A stretch of 64,000 bases of DNA from Kineosporia sp. NBRC 101731 (GTDB taxonomy: Bacteria; Actinomycetota; Actinomycetes; Actinomycetales; Kineosporiaceae): assembly GCF_030269305.1 (NCBI RefSeq), contig NZ_BSTC01000010.1, forward strand, positions 1-64,000, given 5' to 3'. The notes under the pieces were generated by a model that made no database searches, was not told the origin of the DNA, and saw only the letters and a program-made list of their open reading frames with translations. Both the position numbers and the translations under genes were made by a program. This document shows positions 21,849 to 39,426 of the stretch, piece by piece (position 1 is the first letter of the stretch; each line of letters begins with the position of its first letter).

Positions 21849-23285
21849 ATGCCGACTCTCGAGGTCCCGCAGGCACGACACCTCATCGACGGCGGATGGG
21901 TCCCCGCCCGGCACCGGGGCACGTTGGACGTCGTTGATCCGGCGACGCACAAAGCTTTTCACGTCATCGCGAACGGCGGTGCGAGCGATGTCGACGCGGC
22001 TGTCGCCGCCGCGCGCACCGCTGCGCCGGGCTGGGCGGCGATGAACCCGTCCGACCGTGGGGCCCTGCTCGGACGGTGGGCCGCCCTCATCGGTGACCAC
22101 GTCGAGGAGCTGGCCGCCCTGGAGGCCCGCGACGTGGGCAAGCCCTTGTCGGGCGGCCGGATGAACATCTGGATCGCGCAGGGCATCATCGCCTACTTCG
22201 CCGGGGCTGCCGACAAGCTCACCGGTGTCACCCTGCCGACCCGCGACCCCGACTACCTGGGCCTGACCCTGCGCGAGCCGTTCGGCGTCTGCGCGGTCCT
22301 GATCCCGTGGAACGTGCCGGCCGTCCTCACCGCGGCGAACGTCGCCCCGGCCCTGGCCGCCGGCAACACCGTGGTGCTCAAACCCTCCGAGGTGGCGCCG
22401 CTGGTGACGCTCGCCCTCGCCGACCTGGCCGTGCGCGCCGGACTGCCGGCGGGCGTCCTCAATCTGGTCACCGGTGAGGGCGCGACGGCCGGCGTGGCAC
22501 TGACCGGTCATCCCGACATCGACCACATCAGCTTCGTCGGCTCCACGGGCACCGGCCGCGCGGTGATGGCCGGCGCCGCCACACACCTGGTGCCGGTGAA
22601 GCTGGAACTGGGCGGCAAGTCGCCGAACGTGCTGTTCGCCGACGCCGACCTGGACGTGGCGCTGCCCGCGATCGTCGCCTCGATCACCGAGAACGCCGGG
22701 CAGAACTGTTACGCCGGGTCGCGCCTGGTGGTGGAGTCGTCGATCCACGACGAGGTGGTCGAGCGCCTGGAGGAGCTGATGGCCGCCGTCCGGCTCGGCA
22801 CCTGGGAGGAAGACCTCGACATGGGGCCCCTGGTCAGTCAGGCGCAGCACGACCGGGTGGCCGGGTTCCTCCAGGATCCCCAGGCCCGGCTGGTGACCGG
22901 AGGGCGCACCGGGGACGGCTGGTTCATCGAGCCCACGGTGTTCGACCAGGTCACCCCGGACCTGCGGCTGGCCCGGGAGGAGATCTTCGGGCCGGTGCTG
23001 GCGGTGCAGACGTTCACCGGCTTCGACCAGGCCGTGCAGTACGCCAACGCCACCGACTTCGGTCTGCTGGCGTGTCTGTGGACCGGTGACATCTCGAAGG
23101 CCCTGCGGCTGGCCCGGCGCACCCGGGCCGGTCAGGTGGCGGTGAACCAGTTCCACGACGCCGGGGTGATCGGCTTCCCGTTCAACATGCAGCGCGACAG
23201 CGGTTTCAGCGCAGGTGGAGGTTATGCGGCGATGCGTGAATACACCCAGGAGAAGGCTGTGGCGATCAGGTTGCTGGGCCCGTGA
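21849..23285 (+). CDS. Aldehyde dehydrogenase
   Basis: A 478-residue NAD(P)-dependent aldehyde dehydrogenase. It shows the oxyanion/coenzyme segment LIPWNVPA, the Glu region LELGGKSPNV, the catalytic Cys in GQNCYAG and the C-terminal EEIFGPVL motif. The ATG at 21849 has AAGGA seven bases upstream; the longer frame before it is antisense to the dehydrogenase gene. It is the first gene of a plus-strand operon and overlaps the PucR-type regulator by 4 bp (GTGA). It probably oxidises the aldehyde made by the divergent alcohol dehydrogenase. The actual substrate is unknown. Confidence 0.92.
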   Translation: MPTLEVPQARHLIDGGWVPARHRGTLDVVDPATHKAFHVIANGGASDVDAAVAAARTAAPGWAAMNPSDRGALLGRWAALIGDHVEELAALEARDVGKPLSGGRMNIWIAQGIIAYFAGAADKLTGVTLPTRDPDYLGLTLREPFGVCAVLIPWNVPAVLTAANVAPALAAGNTVVLKPSEVAPLVTLALADLAVRAGLPAGVLNLVTGEGATAGVALTGHPDIDHISFVGSTGTGRAVMAGAATHLVPVKLELGGKSPNVLFADADLDVALPAIVASITENAGQNCYAGSRLVVESSIHDEVVERLEELMAAVRLGTWEEDLDMGPLVSQAQHDRVAGFLQDPQARLVTGGRTGDGWFIEPTVFDQVTPDLRLAREEIFGPVLAVQTFTGFDQAVQYANATDFGLLACLWTGDISKALRLARRTRAGQVAVNQFHDAGVIGFPFNMQRDSGFSAGGGYAAMREYTQEKAVAIRLLGP

Positions 23286-24085
23286 CGGACACCCTGCCGG
23301 CCGGTGACGTGCTCATCGACGGTCTGCGGGGCGTCCTCGACGCCCCTGCCGATCTCGCGGATCTGGCCGATCTGGCGGATCTGGCGGATCTGGCCGGCCC
23401 GGCATCCCGGCTGGGCTGGGACCTGCGCCGTCCGCACCGCGCGATCGCGCTGTACTACGACGGCCCGGCCCCGGCCCGCTGGGCGGGTGCCCTGAGCCGG
23501 CTCGGCCGCCCGGTCTCGCGAGAGGGTCGATACGCCTGGACTCTCGTTCCCGGATCTGACGACACGGCCGAACTGCGTCAGATCAGAACCCAATTGGGGA
23601 CGTCTGGGGCCGCCGACGACGTGCTGGCCGCCAGTGGGCCGGTGGCCCACGGGGTGGAACAGACCCGGACCTCGTTCGACGAGGCCGACCGGCTGCTGAG
23701 GCTGTGCCGGTCGCGGGACCGCACCCGGGAGATGCCCTACAGTCACGCCGGGCTGGCCCAGCTGCTCGTCGGGGTGCCCGCCGGCCGGCTCGAGGAATTC
23801 GCCGGTGACCACCTGCGTCCTCTGCTGGATCGCCCCGACCTGCTCGAGACCCTGGCCGCCTGGCTGGATTCCGGGGGGAGCCGGCGGGTGGTGTCCGAGC
23901 GCCTTCACCTGCACCGCAATTCGGTCGGCTACCGGGTGGCCAGCATCCGGCGGCTGCTCGGGTACGACCCGCTCGACCCGGCACTCGCACCCGCACTGTC
24001 TGCTGCACTGCTCGCGGGTGAGATCGTTCGATCACGTCAAATCCTTGCGGTGAGCGGTGTTCCGGCGGGTGTTTCGCCGACGTGA
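23282..24085 (+). CDS. PucR-type helix-turn-helix regulator
   Basis: A 267-residue protein whose last 80 residues match the PucR/CdaR C-terminal helix-turn-helix (LLETLAAWLDSGGSRRVVSE, then LHLHRNSVGYRVASIRRLLG). This domain is found in regulators of purine, proline or sugar-acid catabolism. The N-terminal part is short and lacks an obvious PucR sensor domain. It starts with four to five Ala-Asp-Leu triplets encoded by a perfect 9-bp tandem repeat. Its GTG start overlaps the aldehyde dehydrogenase stop. It probably controls this operon, perhaps in response to the imported substrate. Confidence 0.78.
   Translation: MTDTLPAGDVLIDGLRGVLDAPADLADLADLADLADLAGPASRLGWDLRRPHRAIALYYDGPAPARWAGALSRLGRPVSREGRYAWTLVPGSDDTAELRQIRTQLGTSGAADDVLAASGPVAHGVEQTRTSFDEADRLLRLCRSRDRTREMPYSHAGLAQLLVGVPAGRLEEFAGDHLRPLLDRPDLLETLAAWLDSGGSRRVVSERLHLHRNSVGYRVASIRRLLGYDPLDPALAPALSAALLAGEIVRSRQILAVSGVPAGVSPT
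23351..23395 (+). repeat. 9-bp tandem repeat in the PucR-type gene
   Basis: Five consecutive 9-bp units of the form GATCTGGCG (first unit GATCTCGCG, two units ending in C) encode repeated Asp-Leu-Ala near residues 24-38 of the regulator. The unit is a multiple of three, so slippage would lengthen or shorten the protein in frame. Confidence 0.92.
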
Positions 24086-32196: not shown

Positions 32197-33534
32197 ATGG
32201 CTCACCTTCCACCTCCCACGGCCCTGGTGACCGAGAACTGGGACGAGCAGACCTTCCGCGTGCATCGCGAGGCCTACCGCTCCCAGGCCTTGTTCGACGC
32301 CGAGCGGGACCGGGTCTGGGCCCGGAACTGGCTGTATCTCGGCCACGAGACCGAAATCCCGAACCCCCATGACTTCACGGTGCGCACGCTCGCGGGTCGT
32401 CCTCTGATCTTCGTGCGCGACGGGGAGGGCGAGATCCACGCGTTCCTCAACTCCTGCCCGCACCGCGGAACCGTGGTCTGTCGCGAGAACCAGGGGAATG
32501 CCAAGCATTTCGCCTGCTTCTACCACGCCTGGACCTTTCGCTCGGACGGTGCGGTCTCCTCGATCCCGGGTGCTGACGCCTACCACCGGGACGAGGCGTT
32601 CCGGGCGTCGATGGCGCTGCGGTCGGTGGCCCGGCTGGAGATGCACGAGGGCTACGTCTTCGTCGCGTTCACGCCCGACGTGCCGCCGCTGCTGGAGCAT
32701 CTGGGCGACGCCGCCGACTACCTGACCATGATCGAGCAGCAGCACGCCGGCGGCATGAGGACCCTGCCCGGCACGCAGCTGTACTCGGTGCGTGGCAACT
32801 GGAAACTCGCGGTGGAGAACGCGATGGACGGTTACCACTTCGCACCGACCCACAACACGTTCGTCGGGTACCTGCGCGAGAGCGGTTTTGCGGTCACGGA
32901 TGACGACCAGTATGCGTACACCCTCCAGAACGGCCATCTGTTGCTGGTTCTCACCGGTCACGGCGGGCGCATCAGCATGCTCTGGGAGCCCCGGTTCGGT
33001 GAGGACGAGCGGGTGCGCACCGCTGCGCACCGGGCCGAGATGGTGCAGCGGCTGGGTGCGGAGCGGGCGCACCACGTGGCCGACGAGAGCCACATTCTCT
33101 ACGTCTGGCCGAACCTGCTGCTGTTCGACATCGAGGGCCTCTCGATCCGGCAGCTCGAGCCGGTGTCGCCCGGCGTCACCGACGTGCGCGCCTGGCAACT
33201 GGTGCCGCGCGAGGAGGATCCGGACGCCCGGGCACTGCGCATGCGCACGGTGGTCAGCTTCGTCGGGCCGGGAGGGCTGGCCACGCCGGACGACATCGAG
33301 GCGTACGAGGCCGTGCAGCGCGGCATCGAGGCCACCGCCGGCGGCGGTGAGATCGACGTCAGCGACATGTCACGCGGGATGGCCGACGAGATCAAGGGCG
33401 TCCAGGGACGATCGATCGACGAGGGGGCCATGCGCGGCTTCTGGCGGCACTGGGTGGACGCGGTGGAACCGGGACGCTGGTCGGTCACCGGCCCGCGTCC
33501 GCAGAGTTTCGTGACCGGGCGGGACGTCCGGTGA
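32197..33534 (+). CDS. Aromatic ring-hydroxylating oxygenase, large (alpha) subunit
   Basis: A 445-residue catalytic subunit of a Rieske non-haem iron oxygenase. The Rieske [2Fe-2S] ligands are CPHRG near residue 88 and CFYHAW near 108. The mononuclear iron site is in NAMDGYHFAPTH (two His near 210-216), with the bridging Asp just before. The ATG is preceded by GAGAGG. It overlaps the beta-subunit gene by 4 bp. Such enzymes add O2 across an aromatic ring using electrons from a reductase and often a ferredoxin. Neither partner gene is in this operon, so electrons must come from elsewhere. Substrate unknown. Confidence 0.92.
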   Translation: MAHLPPPTALVTENWDEQTFRVHREAYRSQALFDAERDRVWARNWLYLGHETEIPNPHDFTVRTLAGRPLIFVRDGEGEIHAFLNSCPHRGTVVCRENQGNAKHFACFYHAWTFRSDGAVSSIPGADAYHRDEAFRASMALRSVARLEMHEGYVFVAFTPDVPPLLEHLGDAADYLTMIEQQHAGGMRTLPGTQLYSVRGNWKLAVENAMDGYHFAPTHNTFVGYLRESGFAVTDDDQYAYTLQNGHLLLVLTGHGGRISMLWEPRFGEDERVRTAAHRAEMVQRLGAERAHHVADESHILYVWPNLLLFDIEGLSIRQLEPVSPGVTDVRAWQLVPREEDPDARALRMRTVVSFVGPGGLATPDDIEAYEAVQRGIEATAGGGEIDVSDMSRGMADEIKGVQGRSIDEGAMRGFWRHWVDAVEPGRWSVTGPRPQSFVTGRDVR

Positions 33535-34100
33535 GCGCGGTCCTGGACACCGTGAAGCGTTCCGACGTGGAGGACTGGCTGTACGCCGAGGCCGACATCC
33601 TCGACGCCTGGGACTACGACGCGTGGCTGGCGCTCTTCGAGCCCGGGGCCCGCTTCGAGGTGCCGACCACGGACTTCCGCGGCTGGTCGCCCCTGGGGTC
33701 CGGCTCGTTCGTCACGGACGACTGGGACCTGATCAAGGCGCGGGTGAAGCGGCTGAAATCCCGCAAGGCGCACGCCGAGAACCCGCATTCCCGCACGCAC
33801 CGCCTGGTCTCGAACGTCCGGCTGCACGCCATCACCGACCCGGCGGCGCCGCTGCGGGTCGGCCCCGTGTCCACCGACGTGGCCGTCACGGCCCGGGACT
33901 TCGGCGATCTCAGCCACTGCCTGCGGGTCACCGCGTCGTTCGTGGTGCACCGCGCCCGCGACGGCCGCTTCGACAGCTACGTCGGCCGCTACGACCACGT
34001 GCTGGCTCCCGCCGACGACGGTTTCCGGTTCCGGCTGCGCCGCTCGATCCTCGGGCACGAGGTCCTCACCGCCGGCGCCCGGCTCAGCTTCATTCTCTAG
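33531..34100 (+). CDS. Aromatic ring-hydroxylating oxygenase, small (beta) subunit
   Basis: A 189-residue NTF2-fold structural subunit that forms the alpha3beta3 oxygenase with the previous product. Family features are the N-terminal EDWLYAEADILDAWDYDAWLA helix, the HSRTHRLVSNVR strand and the C-terminal RLRRSILGHEVL segment. The GTG start overlaps the alpha stop (GTGA). The alpha-beta pairing places the enzyme with dioxygenases of the naphthalene/biphenyl/benzoate type rather than the alpha-only oxygenases. Confidence 0.88.
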   Translation: MSAVLDTVKRSDVEDWLYAEADILDAWDYDAWLALFEPGARFEVPTTDFRGWSPLGSGSFVTDDWDLIKARVKRLKSRKAHAENPHSRTHRLVSNVRLHAITDPAAPLRVGPVSTDVAVTARDFGDLSHCLRVTASFVVHRARDGRFDSYVGRYDHVLAPADDGFRFRLRRSILGHEVLTAGARLSFIL

Positions 34101-34116
34101 TCCTCTCTGATTCTCA

Positions 34117-34129
34117 GGAGATCGCGTTG
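34117..34129 (+). promoter_or_regulatory. Ribosome binding site that sets a TTG start
   Basis: AGGAG at 34117-34121 lies six bases before TTG at 34127. No ATG or GTG is available in frame nearby, so this site decides the start of the extradiol dioxygenase gene. Confidence 0.75.
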
Positions 34130-35137
34130 ACCGAGCACACCTATGCCTTCGGCTTCCGCCCGGAGGCCGACGAGGCCACGGCCGGGCAGGCCCGTGCCGA
34201 ACTACAGGCCTTCACCGAGCGCTGGGGCGCGATCCTCGACGACCGGAGCGCACCGGCCTCCACCCGCCCGCACGCTCCGTACGGTTTCGAGTACGCCCGC
34301 ATCGAGGTGCCCGATCTGCCCGCCACGATCGAGTTCCTCGAGTACCACGTCGGGCTGCAACTCGAACAGCGCACCGACGACTACGCCTACCTGCGCTCCG
34401 ACATCGAGCACCACTGCATCGAGCTGATCGCCGCGCCGCACCGGAAGGACGGGGCGACCACCGCCATCGGCTACAGCGTCGAGAGCACGCAGGTGCTCGG
34501 GCAGATCCAGAAGCGGGTGGTCGATGCCGGTCTGGACGTCCTGGAACTGCAAGACCGGCAGAAGAGTTTCTGCAGCGACGGTTTCGCCGTGACCGACCCG
34601 AACGGACTGATCGTGGAGCTCTTCACCGACTTCCACGAATACGCCGAGCCGCCGCACCTGGAGATCCGCCCGACCGACCTGATCCACCCCTTCCTGTCCA
34701 CCACCCGGTGGGAGGAGACCGTGGCCTTCTACACCGACGTACTCGGTTTCCTGCCCTCCGACCACGTCGTCGGGTCCACCACGTTCCTGCGGGGCGAAGA
34801 CCGCTACCACCACAGCCTGGCCGTGCAGAAGAACAAGGAGTTCTTCGTCGGGCACCTGTGTTTCGCCATGAAGAGCCTCGACCACGTGATGCGCCTGCGG
34901 GCGCGGGCTCTCTACCGGGGCGCCCCCATCGCCAGCGACATCGTGAACCACTCGGCGTCCACGAGCATCGCCTTCTATCTGCACGACACCCGGTTCGGGC
35001 CGCGCTTCGAGCTCTGCGACCGCCACCGGGTGCTCACTCCCGCCGAGCACGAGACGCACCGCGCCCGGCACATGCCCGCCGACCCGCGCAACATCGACGT
35101 CTGGCGGCCCGCGTCCGACGACTGGGGCCGGTTCTGA
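34127..35137 (+). CDS. Extradiol ring-cleavage dioxygenase (two-domain VOC, type I)
   Basis: A 336-residue enzyme with two vicinal-oxygen-chelate modules. The second module carries the three iron ligands expected for type I extradiol dioxygenases: His in LIHPFLSTT, His in DRYHHSLAV and Glu in RFELCDRH. It should open a catechol-like ring next to the two hydroxyls, after the Rieske oxygenase and a dehydrogenase have produced the diol. No diol dehydrogenase lies in the operon, so the order of steps may differ. Start is TTG with a good ribosome site. The stop overlaps the next gene. Confidence 0.85.
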   Translation: MTEHTYAFGFRPEADEATAGQARAELQAFTERWGAILDDRSAPASTRPHAPYGFEYARIEVPDLPATIEFLEYHVGLQLEQRTDDYAYLRSDIEHHCIELIAAPHRKDGATTAIGYSVESTQVLGQIQKRVVDAGLDVLELQDRQKSFCSDGFAVTDPNGLIVELFTDFHEYAEPPHLEIRPTDLIHPFLSTTRWEETVAFYTDVLGFLPSDHVVGSTTFLRGEDRYHHSLAVQKNKEFFVGHLCFAMKSLDHVMRLRARALYRGAPIASDIVNHSASTSIAFYLHDTRFGPRFELCDRHRVLTPAEHETHRARHMPADPRNIDVWRPASDDWGRF

Positions 35138-36330
35138 CGCAGGAGCTCCTGCGGGAGATCCTGGTCCAGCTCGACAGCACACCGTCTCCGCACGGTCGCG
35201 AACGGGAGGCGGCCGTGCGGTTGCGTGCGTGGTGCTCGGCGCGGTGGCCGTTCATCTCCTGGAGGGTGCAGGAATACGGTGACGGCGGAGCCAATCTGGT
35301 GGCCTCCTGCGGTGAGACGCCGTCGGGACGGGTGCTGTACTCGCATCTGGACACCTCACTGAACGGCTCGCTGGAGGACGCCGTCGTCACCGGACGCACG
35401 GATCCGCCGGGTCCGTTGCGGATCGGCGAGGACGGCACGGTGGACGGGTTCGGCCTGGGGGTCGCCCGCGGGCCGGCCGCCGCGGCGCTCGTGGGGTTCG
35501 TGGAGTCCATGGATTTCGTGGATTTCGTGGACGCGGCCCCGCACGTGCGTGAGGGCGCCACCCTCCTTCTCGCCGGCAGCGGTACGCATCGCCTTCTCCC
35601 CGGCGAGACCACGGGTGTCGAGGCCTATCTCGCCGCCCACGAGCATCCCCGGCAGGCGATCATCGCCAAGGCCGGGCCGCCGGCCGTGCTCCACTCCGAG
35701 CCCGGCGCCGCGTACCTGACCGTGCGGGTCGAGGGACGACAGGGCGCGGTACTGGCCCGGCGGTTCCATCGGCCCGAGGGAGGGGTGCTCGCCCACACCG
35801 GCCGCCTGATCGACGCGATCGAGGCCTGGCGGGTGGCTCACCTCGCCCGCAGAACACCGTCCCGGATCGGGGCCGAGGTCGGCATCGGCCATCTGCGTTC
35901 CGGCCTGGTCACCAAGCCCGACCTGATCCCGGCGGTTCTCGAGCTGGGCCTGTACCTGGTCACGATCCCCGGAGACCGGGTTCCCGACATCGGCCGGGAT
36001 CTCGAAAATACCCTTCGGGCCGTGGCTCCGGAAGGATGCACGGTGCGGGTCGATCACCACGAGATCCATGCCGCCGGACTGACCGACGATGACGCTCCGA
36101 TCGTTCGCCGAGCCCGTGCCGTGCGGGAGAGATACCTCGGACCCGAACAGTCCGTCACCGGCTGGACCGGATCGACCGACGGCGTGGTCTTGCGCGGTCA
36201 CGGTATCGACACCGTCCGTCTGGGGCCCACGATCGCCCCGCTGCCGGAAGATCGGCGACGGGACCGGACCACCCTGGACCACCTCGTCCTCTGGTCGCAG
36301 ATCTACCGTGATCTTCTGACGCAGACGTGA
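35134..36330 (+). CDS. M20-family-like metallohydrolase, probable CTG start
   Basis: A roughly 398-residue protein resembling M20 amidohydrolases/peptidases. It has an N-terminal helix ending STPSPHGRE, a YSHLDTS segment matching the first metal motif, a GLGVARGPAAAAL turn and a C-terminal GWTGSTDGVVLRGHGIDTVRLG block. No ATG, GTG or TTG exists in frame near the conserved N-terminus. The CTG at 35134 would overlap the previous stop by 4 bp, as in the other genes here, and is proposed as the start. In an aromatic operon it could hydrolyse an amide conjugate or ring-cleavage product. The operon terminator follows at once. Confidence 0.68.
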   Translation: MTQELLREILVQLDSTPSPHGREREAAVRLRAWCSARWPFISWRVQEYGDGGANLVASCGETPSGRVLYSHLDTSLNGSLEDAVVTGRTDPPGPLRIGEDGTVDGFGLGVARGPAAAALVGFVESMDFVDFVDAAPHVREGATLLLAGSGTHRLLPGETTGVEAYLAAHEHPRQAIIAKAGPPAVLHSEPGAAYLTVRVEGRQGAVLARRFHRPEGGVLAHTGRLIDAIEAWRVAHLARRTPSRIGAEVGIGHLRSGLVTKPDLIPAVLELGLYLVTIPGDRVPDIGRDLENTLRAVAPEGCTVRVDHHEIHAAGLTDDDAPIVRRARAVRERYLGPEQSVTGWTGSTDGVVLRGHGIDTVRLGPTIAPLPEDRRRDRTTLDHLVLWSQIYRDLLTQT

Positions 36331-36379: not shown

Positions 36380-37456
36380 TCAGTTACCCCAGTCGAAATT
36401 GGGGGTGACCGCGTCGGCGATCGTGAACCGTCCACCCGGCAGCACCCCACCGGCCGGTTCGCCCATGGTGACCACGTGCTTGCCGAACTTCTCCACCAGG
36501 GGCCGGCCGACGTCGCGTTTGAGCCACAGGCGTAGCAGGTGGCGGCGGCGTTCGGGCTCGGCGAAGTCGAGGTAGCCGGTGCGGGAGTGCAGAGCGGCGT
36601 AGTTCAGCAGCCACTGCACGTCGCCGGGCTGGAAGTTCATGTCCAGGGCCAGCCCGGGTTCCTGGGAGATCTCGTCGAACAGGTTGAGCACCTCGATCTG
36701 CTCGGGGGTCAGGCGGGGCACCTCCTCGAACCGCTGGGCCGAGAAGACCATCGACATACCCGCGTAGATGCTGAAAATACCGTCCACATAAGAGACGACG
36801 GGAGAGGTGTAGGTGTTGCCGGGAGCGTCCGGGTCCTGCTTCTTCCAGTCCCAGTGGAACGGCTCGAACAGCAGCGGCGCCAGATCCGGGCGCCGGCGCA
36901 GCACCTCGTTGTAGATCGTGGTGCCGCTGACCAGACTGCTCGCGCCGCCCTCGCGGGCGCCGCGCAGGCACATCAGGGCCACCACGTCGGAGGAGTCGGA
37001 GTGGAAGGGCAGACGGTCGCGCACGCGGGAAGGTTTCGCGCCTTCGTCGGCGAGAGTCTTGTCCGAGGTGGCAATCACGTGGTCGAGCAGGTCGCCCATC
37101 TGGTTCTGCCCGATCGGCAGGCCCAGGTGCAGACCCATGATGAAGAAGATCGCCCCGGCCAGAACATCGCCGTACTCTTCGGTCTTCAGGCCCCGGATGA
37201 GGATGAAGCCCCGGCCGGAGTCCAGCTGGCGGGCCGACTCCTCGTTCAGCCGGGTACAGGCGGGCAGGGGGTAGTCGGCGGCGGTGACGGTGCGCAGGTC
37301 CGGGTCGTCGGCCACGAACCGGCGGCCCGCGGCCTCCAGGTCGCTGAGCTCGGCCGGGCCGAGTTCGTAGATCCATGCGGTGGATCCGGCCAGGTCGGAG
37401 CCTCTCCAGGCGGAGGGGCCGGAGATCGGTTCCCGGCTGGTCGTGGTGTCGGTCAT
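36380..37456 (-). CDS. TauD/TfdA-family Fe(II)/2-oxoglutarate dioxygenase
   Basis: A 358-residue non-haem iron dioxygenase of the clavaminate synthase-like/TauD superfamily. The iron triad is seen as HSD in LPFHSDSSD (about residue 150) and a distal His in NYAALHSRTGY (about 290). The Arg in the RRRHLLRLWLK block fits the 2-oxoglutarate salt bridge. Such enzymes hydroxylate or desaturate amino acids, taurine-like and aryloxy compounds. The ATG has GGAG eight bases upstream. It lies 106 bases after a 43-codon ORF that has its own promoter, so the two are probably co-transcribed. It converges with the ring-cleavage operon. Confidence 0.85.
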   Translation of the reverse strand: MTDTTTSREPISGPSAWRGSDLAGSTAWIYELGPAELSDLEAAGRRFVADDPDLRTVTAADYPLPACTRLNEESARQLDSGRGFILIRGLKTEEYGDVLAGAIFFIMGLHLGLPIGQNQMGDLLDHVIATSDKTLADEGAKPSRVRDRLPFHSDSSDVVALMCLRGAREGGASSLVSGTTIYNEVLRRRPDLAPLLFEPFHWDWKKQDPDAPGNTYTSPVVSYVDGIFSIYAGMSMVFSAQRFEEVPRLTPEQIEVLNLFDEISQEPGLALDMNFQPGDVQWLLNYAALHSRTGYLDFAEPERRRHLLRLWLKRDVGRPLVEKFGKHVVTMGEPAGGVLPGGRFTIADAVTPNFDWGN

Positions 37457-37562
37457 CGTGAGTACTCCCGGGGTGGGGGCGAATCAGGACGTCGCTGGGC
37501 ACCGGGCCGGCCTGGGGGCAGGCGTGAACCCGGAAAGACCTTGCCGTGAAAAGGGAAGAACC

Positions 37563-37694
37563 CTAGAAGGGCACCTGCGGGTTGCCGACGGCCGTACCGG
37601 GACGGCGCAGGCCCTCACGGGGCGGGCGGCAACGCAGGGGATCGGCGTGACGCAGGCCGACGGACGGCATGCCGGGGGTGGCCATCGATGTCAT
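37563..37694 (-). CDS. Small ORF (43 aa) upstream of the TauD-type gene, unknown
   Basis: An unannotated-size ORF with convincing expression signals: GGAGG five to six bases before its ATG, and a promoter about 30 bases further up. The peptide is Pro/Arg/Gly-rich, with a single Cys in LRHADPLRCRPPREGLRR and the C-terminal end TAVGNPQVPF. No signal peptide or membrane helix is present. Third codon positions are strongly G/C, as in real genes of this genome. I do not recognise a family. It could be a precursor peptide modified by the neighbouring dioxygenase, a leader peptide controlling that gene, or a regulatory microprotein. Function is unassigned. Confidence 0.6.
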   Translation of the reverse strand: MTSMATPGMPSVGLRHADPLRCRPPREGLRRPGTAVGNPQVPF

Positions 37695-37729
37695 GTCGGC
37701 CTCCCCGGGAGAAGATGCGGTCCCGTCCC

Positions 37730-37758
37730 AGGCTAGGTAGCCGCGTTGATGGCGTCAA
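37730..37758 (-). promoter_or_regulatory. Promoter of the small ORF-TauD unit
   Basis: On the minus strand TTGACG (37758-37753) and TAGCCT (37735-37730) are separated by exactly 17 bases, a near-perfect primary sigma promoter for actinobacteria. Transcription would start near 37723, giving a leader of about 30 bases before the small ORF. Confidence 0.75.
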
Positions 37759-37761
37759 TAT

Positions 37762-37778
37762 GCGAGACGGCTTCTCGC
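37762..37778. promoter_or_regulatory. Operator-like palindrome upstream of the small ORF promoter
   Basis: GCGAGA (37762-37767) and TCTCGC (37773-37778) form an inverted repeat with a five-base centre, three bases upstream of the -35 element. This is a typical place for an activator or repressor site. The binding protein is unknown. Confidence 0.5.
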
Positions 37779-37783
37779 AGTCA

Positions 37784-37803
37784 GTTTTACCTGATGATCA
37801 CGG
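37784..37803. repeat. Degenerate copy of the GCATGATCACG repeat (element D)
   Basis: GTTTTACCTGATGATCACGG resembles the core GTTTTGCATGATCACGG of elements A and B, with a three-base insertion. It lies between the YtcJ-type gene and the small ORF promoter. The match is shorter than in the other copies and may be chance. Confidence 0.45.
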
Positions 37804-37827
37804 AGGAAGTGGGGGTTCGCGGTCAGG

Positions 37828-39426
37828 TCAGGTCAGCGCCGGGCGGCCGTCTACCAGGGTGGTCAGCACCTGGCCCTGGCGCAGCTCCTCGTCGTCGCAG
37901 GTGAGGGGGTTGACATCGAGGGCCACCAGGTCGGCGGGGCCGCCCGGCGACAGGTGGCCGCGGGTTCCGGTGATCGCGGCGGCGCCGGTGGTGAACAGGG
38001 TCAGGGCCTCGGCGGGGGTGATGGCCTGCGCCGGGCCGAGGGGGGTGCCGCGGCCCCGCACCCTGCGGGTGCGGGCCTGCCACATGCCGAAGAGCGGGGA
38101 CATCGGTGGGCCCGGGCCGTCGCTGCCGCCCCCGACCAGGACCCCGGCGTCGAGCCAGGCGCGCAGCGGGTTGGCCTGAGCGGCTTCGGCCTCGCTGAGC
38201 CGGTCGATCAGGGCGGTGCCGAAGGCCCACTGCAGAGCGGGATGCGCGGAGACCGGCACACCGAGCCGGGCGGCCCGCGACAAGGCCGAACCGCTGGGGG
38301 AGAGGTAGCCGTGGATGATGTGGAATCCGGTGCCGCGGTAGGGCTGGTCGCCGGCCCAGTTCAGCACCTCGAGCACGTCGAGCAGGGCGTCGATCGCGGC
38401 GTCGCCGACCGCGTGCACCCCGACGCCGCGTCCGCCGAGCCCGGCCGAGCAGTGGGCGCGCAGCGTGTCCAGAGTGATGCTCTGGTTGCCGTGGTCCGGT
38501 TTCCCGGGGCCCGGCCAGGGGCTGGAGCGCCACGCGGTGCCCAGCGATCCGCCGCCGTCCAGGAAGAGTTTCGTGGGACCGGTGCGGAGCCGGCGGGGGT
38601 CGACCTCGTCGATGCCGGAAGTGCTGAGGAAGGAGGCGATCTCGAGGGGACTCACATCGTCCGAGCCGAGCGGCATGACCACGCAGCGCTGACCCAGCCA
38701 GCCCTCCTGCGCGGCGCTGATCCAGGCCGGGAGCTCGGCCAGGGTGACGGCCGGATCCATCGCGGTGGTGATGCCCTGGCGCAGCAGCTCGGCCTGGCCC
38801 AGCCGGATCCAGCGGACGCGGGTCTCGAGATCCGGTGCGGGTTGCACGTTCCGGACCAGGGCTACGGCGGGGTGCTCGATCAGCAGCCCGGTCACCCGTC
38901 CGGTGCGGTCACGGTGGATCCGTCCGCCGGCCGGATCCGGCGTGGTGGCGGTGATCCCGGCGTCGTGGAGCACCGGTGAACTGACGATCGCGTCGTGGCC
39001 CTTGCGGTCGAGCAGCACGCGGCGGCCGGGGCAGGCCCGGTCGAGGTCGGACCGGTCGGGCAGGCGCCCCTCGGCCAGGTCGATCGCCTCGAACTCGGCG
39101 TCGGCCTCGATCCAGCCCGCGTGGCCGGCGGCGAATTCGGCCAGCCGCCGCTCGATCTCCTGCACGCTGCGCACCTCGCCGAGGTCGCAACGGTCCTGAC
39201 GCCGGCCGGCCCACAGCACGTGCACGTGGCTGTCGGTGAAGCCCGGCAGAACCGTTCCGGGCAGGTCGATCTCGCGTACCCGCCCACCGAGCTCGGCGCG
39301 CACCCATCCGCGTGACCCCCAGGACACGATCGCCCCGTCGCGCACGCCGATGGCCTCGACCCGGGCCGGCATCTCGTTCTCCGGGGCCAGCGTGTGGATG
39401 TCGCCGGTGATGAGGACGTCAGGCAT
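37828..39426 (-). CDS. YtcJ-type metal-dependent amidohydrolase
   Basis: A 532-residue amidohydrolase-superfamily enzyme (amidohydrolase_3 type). The metal site is visible as DSHVH near residue 68, His in GVGVHAVGDAAID, a FHIIHGY segment and the Asp in GGGSDGPGPPMS. The usual LPGFTDSH barrel entrance and a C-terminal beta domain (PADLVALDVNPLT) are complete. Family members cut amide or N-formyl bonds of diverse compounds. The ATG at 39426 is used; a GTG at 39438 would add four residues. It lies downstream of the eleven-gene operon, separated by repeat element B. Confidence 0.87.
   Translation of the reverse strand: MPDVLITGDIHTLAPENEMPARVEAIGVRDGAIVSWGSRGWVRAELGGRVREIDLPGTVLPGFTDSHVHVLWAGRRQDRCDLGEVRSVQEIERRLAEFAAGHAGWIEADAEFEAIDLAEGRLPDRSDLDRACPGRRVLLDRKGHDAIVSSPVLHDAGITATTPDPAGGRIHRDRTGRVTGLLIEHPAVALVRNVQPAPDLETRVRWIRLGQAELLRQGITTAMDPAVTLAELPAWISAAQEGWLGQRCVVMPLGSDDVSPLEIASFLSTSGIDEVDPRRLRTGPTKLFLDGGGSLGTAWRSSPWPGPGKPDHGNQSITLDTLRAHCSAGLGGRGVGVHAVGDAAIDALLDVLEVLNWAGDQPYRGTGFHIIHGYLSPSGSALSRAARLGVPVSAHPALQWAFGTALIDRLSEAEAAQANPLRAWLDAGVLVGGGSDGPGPPMSPLFGMWQARTRRVRGRGTPLGPAQAITPAEALTLFTTGAAAITGTRGHLSPGGPADLVALDVNPLTCDDEELRQGQVLTTLVDGRPALT

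Follow-up and report, generated by a model that had tools for sequence, protein, structure and literature searches.

In the tnaC leader of E. coli the spacer contains a rut site immediately behind the stop codon, and the stalled ribosome blocks Rho (excerpted account in PMC10941005). The locus described here lies in a stretch of 64,000 nucleotides from Kineosporia sp. NBRC 101731, which was analysed as a whole and is referred to as the window. It resembles TnaC, as far as that excerpted account describes it, in a short translated ORF which comes first in a catabolic unit, in conserved C-terminal residues and in an untranslated spacer as a potential Rho-loading site. The sequences differ, however. 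At the distances from the stop at which the excerpt of PMC10941005 places W12, D16, I19 and P24 of TnaC, the peptide family has R, A or G, a variable residue and F, and it is therefore not a TnaC homologue. Moreover, the downstream gene encodes a TauD-family oxygenase, and the hosts are actinobacteria.

Candidate leaders with runs of Cys codons near the stop were proposed for actinobacterial cys operons, and for the cys leaders of Mycobacterium Rho-dependent control via pyrimidine-rich spacer motifs was raised by the authors, who call the prediction weak (both in the excerpted part of PMC1262725). According to the same excerpt the leaders in Mycobacterium are short ORFs without conserved hairpins, which is the likeness to our locus (PMC1262725), whereas the single Cys of the window peptide is not conserved. 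Arrest peptides of the RAPP type share the encoding of a selected segment 5' of the regulated gene and the Pro/Arg content, but they concern protein localisation and have another motif, while the peptide found here is in fixed register with the stop codon. Finally, RiPP precursors are found together with Fe(II)/2-oxoglutarate enzymes, and here too a small gene is paired with a 2-oxoglutarate oxygenase. As a difference, no maturation protease or exporter is seen among the annotated neighbours, and relatives of the enzyme persist without the peptide. To our knowledge, nascent peptides that sense a ligand are few in number, and we are aware of none for an actinobacterial oxygenase gene. The top-ranked literature matches listed for the peptide contain no description of it.

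The peptide gene and its distribution

The locus is read from the minus strand of the window. The gene of a TauD/TfdA-family Fe(II)/2-oxoglutarate dioxygenase (36380..37456, ATG at 37456, 358 aa) has a ribosome-binding site GGGAG at 37465..37469 and is preceded by a spacer of 106 nt (37457..37562). Upstream of the spacer lies an ORF of 43 codons (MTSMATPGMPSVGLRHADPLRCRPPREGLRRPGTAVGNPQVPF, 37563..37694), which begins with ATG at 37694, ends with GNPQVPF-TAG at 37563, is rich in Pro and Arg and contains one Cys. Its ribosome-binding site GGAGG is located at 37700..37704, followed further upstream by a -10 element TAGCCT (37730..37735) placed 17 bases after the -35 element TTGACG (37753..37758). 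Three bases 5' of the latter the palindrome GCGAGAAGCCGTCTCGC (GCGAGA-N5-TCTCGC, 37762..37778) is found, a probable operator which has no strand of its own. The original prediction had described this arrangement, and every element of it is present as stated there. From the order and the promoter we infer that the ORF is part of the tauD transcription unit and is carried on one transcript with it.

Relatives of the TauD protein were collected from 84,980 species genomes (13 loci), from the family of the window (3 of 13 genomes), from another family (11 of 200 genomes), from the genus of a Streptomyces hit (14 of 295 genomes, five of them at 75-76% identity), from the family of a Microtetraspora hit (9 of 200 genomes, seven at 74-79%), from a class sample (11 of 394 genomes) and from 10 plasmid records, of which only the copy of Streptomyces NBC_00841 (L047) was taken further. 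Once loci that share a tauD start had been removed, 31 TauDs with at least 73% identity to that of the window remained, the window included. In 30 of these 31 a homologous ORF of 36-46 aa lies directly 5' of tauD on the same strand, at a distance of 55-240 nt; these counts are inflated by the kinship of the sequences, and the peptide starts in the relatives were picked by hand from alternatives. A lack of homologous short ORFs near related TauDs, named beforehand as the outcome that would speak against the proposal, was thus not observed. Judged by comparison of sequences, the peptide ORF upstream of tauD is confirmed as real and beyond chance.

At 58-69% identity a diverged form of the peptide precedes 4 of 17 TauDs, and none is visible for the other 13. 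Three of the four loci carry a second form (MSWEKPVAAVPAITRAPIGHWKGPEFPAIRPGTGAGKALVPF) with a promoter-like site of its own, 287-305 nt before tauD. A third form, which ends with KRHGLRHGTAVNGIYAHF, is represented by a single locus (L011), for which a GTG start was chosen by hand. No peptide was found for the 15 TauDs at or below 41% identity, one of which (L016) has only 119 nt of upstream sequence. Strand and order are the same in the 30 close, the three second-form and the one third-form loci, all of which were found by looking upstream of tauD. The profile scan of open frames gave no additional peptide locus beside a tauD.

Genome-wide profile searches of two samples of 200 genomes, which do not depend on a tauD as starting point, placed the first form only in genomes with a close TauD (11 of 11 and 7 of 7). 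Beyond these, the first set gave second-form peptides in five genomes and one weak match, and the second set gave four weak matches (E 4e-4 to 8e-4). The first-form profile matched 36 of the 394 genomes of the class sample at E 0.01, and only G000 and G107 are convincing (at least 62 bits; next 24); these are the two class-sample genomes which have a TauD of at least 79% identity. A search of 17 chosen genomes recovered the first form in G000, G474 and G412, gave weak matches away from a stop in G009, G208 and G415, and gave no match in seven f26 genomes, G224, G411, G413 and G414. By tblastn one real copy was identified on a plasmid, that of Streptomyces (H4, L047), and three other plasmid matches were taken as chance.

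The majority end of the first form reads EPLRxxPPREGxRPGTAxGxPQTPF-stop, and the stop codon is TGA in 27, TAA in two and TAG in one of the 30 ORFs. PQxPF closes 29 of them and VQTPF the remaining one. The Cys is not conserved, as that column contains Cys in one of 30 ORFs and Ser in the nearest relative. All three forms have R-x-G-T-[AG]-[AV]-x5-[PH]-F-stop in common, in a fixed register to the stop and without any indel.

Within lineages the pN/pS of the 26-codon core is 0.21, 0.00, 0.30 and 0.12, and overall it is 0.30. From the N-terminus to the last 13 codons the values run 0.49, 0.23 and 0.18 in Streptomyces, 1.34, 0.39 and 0.17 in five loci of another family, and 0.17, 0 and 0 in the remaining lineage set. 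The C-terminal 13 residues are hence the most constrained in two of the three sets and tied with the middle in the third. The coding sequence is more conserved than spacer and promoter region in all five groups compared and gap-free within four of them. By these measures the peptide ORF is evolving as a protein.

None of the 30 ORFs has a run of a single codon. The window peptide has no match in Pfam, NCBIfam or PHROGs up to E 10, and the same is true for two relatives in Pfam. Four 12-residue matches from a PDB profile search (E 0.21-1.6) were taken as chance. The AlphaFold model of the peptide (mean pLDDT 58.6) is without secondary structure. An HMM scan of the open frames in the fetched loci revealed no fusion with a larger protein: every listed match of 29-60 bits ends at its own stop, and the next one, at 23.4 bits, does not.

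Promoter, palindrome and gene neighbourhood

The promoter agrees with the consensus at 8 of 12 bases and is absent from the output of a standard consensus scan. Of the 30 loci, however, 29 contain TTGAC, and in 29 a hexamer beginning with TA follows 16-18 bases 3' of the -35 element. The exact palindrome core GAGA-N5-TCTC occurs within 120 nt 5' of 23 of the 30 peptide ORFs and, with one mismatch, in front of the other seven, compared to 13 of 4000 random 120-mers drawn from the larger loci.

The convergent genes on the plus strand (32197..36330) are catabolic and encode, by Pfam, a Rieske alpha and a beta subunit and a glyoxalase-superfamily protein; a further gene product of 371 aa has no Pfam match. 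The same four protein clusters are found beside tauD in L131, L135, L004, L005, L008 and L047. Among 12 Rieske alpha genes the exact GAGA-N5-TCTC lies upstream of six (L133, L135, L139, L140, L005 and L008), although in L140 it falls inside the called start. A site with one mismatch is present in L143 and L011, and an exact one before the Rieske alpha gene of L131 is masked by an overlong gene call; this check included L004 without upstream sequence and L047 with only 97 nt of it. Upstream of the window's own Rieske alpha gene the site is missing, the best candidate having three mismatches. Because the motif recurs before Rieske oxygenase genes in relatives, the palindrome is probably an operator shared between the peptide-tauD unit and the Rieske genes of the same cluster. 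Genome-wide counts of the pattern were compared with those of the reversed pattern in six genomes; they are lower in three and slightly higher in three, and hence uninformative, so the argument is one of positional conservation only. In the profile scan of open frames no peptide was found before Rieske genes, and the peptide therefore goes with tauD rather than with the palindrome. A palindrome site in L135 is adjoined by an IclR-family gene.

A consensus scan of 37300-37900 returned two terminator-like sites against 0.1 expected. The palindrome, read on the plus strand (37761-37779) with the following GTCAGTTTTA, scores as terminator-like. This assignment was set aside in favour of an operator since the relatives keep the half-sites close upstream of the -35 element.

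The wider region of the window (17066-48000) contains further catabolic genes, namely a P450-reductase fusion, a formamidase-like protein, an aldehyde dehydrogenase, a PucR regulator (23282-24085) and a BMP-type ABC importer, and in addition the Rieske oxygenase, a gamma-glutamyltransferase, a cyclase, a creatininase and amidohydrolases. Parts of this region recur around tauD in the relatives. A Pfam scan of part of the neighbours detected neither a protease nor an exporter; the 371-aa neighbour gave no match, and several others carry no annotation either.

The spacer and the TauD enzyme

Across the 34 loci with tauD the spacer measures 55-305 nt. In the 30 close loci it is rich in C and poor in G, with a mean C skew of 0.165 and a YC density of 0.230, compared to 0.018 and 0.169 in 85 gaps of 55-305 nt between genes of the same strand. 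These controls were delimited by a crude gene caller, which made overlong calls as for the Rieske gene of L131 and the tauD of L137. With 12 hand-picked representatives the one-sided P values are 3e-4 for C skew and 6e-4 for YC. The composition, and the composition only, suggests that the spacers resemble a Rho-loading region, that of the window being a candidate rut-like one, and the C skew could have a different cause.

We estimate at roughly 45% the probability that the peptide is a nascent-peptide leader which would control tauD through Rho, by a logic like that of TnaC and with an unrelated sequence. With a pathway compound in the exit tunnel, the ribosome finishing the peptide would stall at or near the stop and cover the C-rich spacer, Rho would be unable to load and transcription would enter tauD. 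If the compound is absent, the ribosome would leave, Rho would load and tauD would stay untranscribed. We favour this Rho-dependent leader because of the gene order, the spacer, the register to the stop and the constraint which rises towards the stop.

Control by RNA structure, in which translation of the ORF flips a hairpin that ends transcription or hides the ribosome site of tauD, would likewise suit a short ORF in front of an enzyme gene. In the window a weak terminator-like site (37572-37560; five pairs, then TCTTCCCTTT) overlaps the stop of the 43-aa ORF. Folding of the spacers is slightly stronger than that of shuffled sequences (mean z -1.0; below -2 in 4 of 30), and both this mild folding and the stop-overlapping site count against a leader of the Rho type. 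Common hairpins were found in the seven Streptomyces spacers. The RNA switch nevertheless appears very improbable to us. T-runs of at least four are present in just 7 of 30 spacers, and the ORFs have no one-codon run. Covariation support is lacking, as 3 of 27 pairs are changed on both sides in the Streptomyces spacers (covariation term +0.47) and 0 of 42 in four spacers of another family; within the scope of these two sets no fold was shared between lineages. When the 30 spacers were modelled for a Shine-Dalgarno switch, the opening of the ribosome site was 0.23 in the free RNA and 0.22 with a stalled ribosome. The leader gave no Rfam family at the gathering score, and a sub-threshold snoRNA match on the other strand was taken as chance.

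Two single spacers are peculiar. That of L065 (55 nt) has an inverted repeat (TCCGAGGGCT/AGCCCTCGGA) across the tauD ribosome site with a z of -3.17, which would suit a structural switch and was noticed in no other spacer. In L007 14 copies of the 8-base GCTTCTGA extend over 125 nt right after the peptide stop, as if the end of the peptide gene had been copied in tandem. The latter repeat counts against the Rho-dependent leader, since a fixed geometry from stop to rut would not favour it.

The window TauD matches PF02668 with E 5.5e-28 and 99 bits (cut-off 27). H152, D154 and H290, whose role as ligands is assigned by the HxD...H motif, are invariant in 15 aligned TauD sequences. The AlphaFold model of TauD has a mean pLDDT of 61.7 and was set aside as a basis for fold comparison. 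At E 0.001 the only solved relatives are 7n7v, a predicted hydroxylase, and FrbJ, neither of which is a peptide enzyme by its title.

One close TauD of the 31, that of L003 from the same genus, lacks both the peptide ORF and the palindrome. A promoter of the same type directly precedes its tauD, and the Rieske block, a neighbour of tauD both in the window and in L131, is missing from that place. The TauD of L012, whose gene follows ABC-importer genes, is without a first-form peptide, too. On a tree of 62 TauDs the presence of the first form calls for three changes, which can be taken as a single gain and a loss each in L003 and L012, with the placement of L012 unsure. The branches of both are long, 0.16 for L003 compared to 0.041 and 0.068 in its genus and 0.42 for L012. 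In the alignment of 15 sequences the TauDs without peptide, these two included, keep the HxD...H motif.

These enzymes bear on the idea of a RiPP-like pair, in which TauD hydroxylates or otherwise modifies the peptide to give a small signal or cofactor. A precursor-first order with an untranslated spacer, the conserved C-terminal core and the strict co-occurrence of first-form peptide and TauD would all agree with it. However, the persistence of intact TauDs without the peptide speaks against the peptide as the only substrate, and the absence of a protease or exporter among the annotated neighbours, the catabolic setting (Rieske, glyoxalase-superfamily, P450, ABC importers, amidohydrolases) and the nature of the solved relatives do not fit either, so that we regard such a pair as unlikely. 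Of the two options offered by the original prediction, the leader-controlled gene fares better than the peptide with its modifying enzyme. The ORF is real and conserved, and leader control fits the layout best, as the ORF is always first, the C-rich spacer is variable, the constraint increases towards the stop and ORF and palindrome are jointly absent in L003.

A shortened second tauD frame (271 aa) of G474 was seen at 9609-10421 of L179, and the adjoining importer frame is also short by crude gene calls. No second-form peptide was found in G474.

Peptide genes without tauD and the action of the peptide

The second form has no tauD downstream in G595 and G107, which belong to the same genus; this concerns two of the five second-form loci found. 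The peptide genes (L158, 1498-1626, minus strand; L159, 1492-1620, plus strand) are divergent from importer genes, which are complete in L178 and truncated at the edge of the contig in L177; a relative of the importer in L136 is of the NMT1 type. Both genomes carry a first-form TauD elsewhere. In L158 a tRNA-Ala gene lies downstream of the peptide gene.

Between the two loci the coding sequence differs at 8 of 129 positions, compared to 24%, gaps included, in the next 243 alignment columns (Fisher P = 8e-6). Beyond the spacer a weak colinear similarity continues (local score 110; best of 300 unrelated 101, of 300 shuffles 83), which suggests that tauD was already lost before L158 and L159 split. 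The C skew persists over the first 290 nt in both. The pN/pS of the second form is 0.36 in this pair and 0 in the three loci with tauD. Either the peptide has some role in trans, or tauD was lost recently and decay is under way. Both loci count against a pure leader, because such a leader should have decayed there.

Action in trans is, in our opinion, possible but somewhat doubtful. The ORFs would then form a new family of microproteins of 36-46 aa which are processed by TauD or control it, belong to a catabolic regulon of aromatic type and can outlive the enzyme beside an ABC importer. In its more specific version, which we rate as rather unlikely, a released and probably unstructured peptide would bind TauD, a regulator or an importer via R-x-G-T...PF-COOH and tune it. 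The conserved peptide genes beside importer genes, the first-form TauD elsewhere in both genomes, the AlphaFold model without secondary structure and the long branches of the peptide-less TauDs of L003 and L012 would agree with it. On the other hand, the gene of such a partner need not always be first and 55-305 untranslated nt away, as it is in 34 loci, no fusion occurs in the fetched loci, and L003 and L012 keep TauD without the peptide.

Whether as a leader in cis or as a partner in trans, the product of the 43-aa gene probably represents a type of peptide not seen before, which regulates a catabolic pathway or acts as a partner in it. With its C-terminal motif fixed across three forms, the family would offer a new motif for tests of stalling or binding, and it could report on the substrate of TauD and on the pathway. 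If action in trans is true, the peptide would be a microprotein without earlier description that is linked to a 2-oxoglutarate oxygenase.
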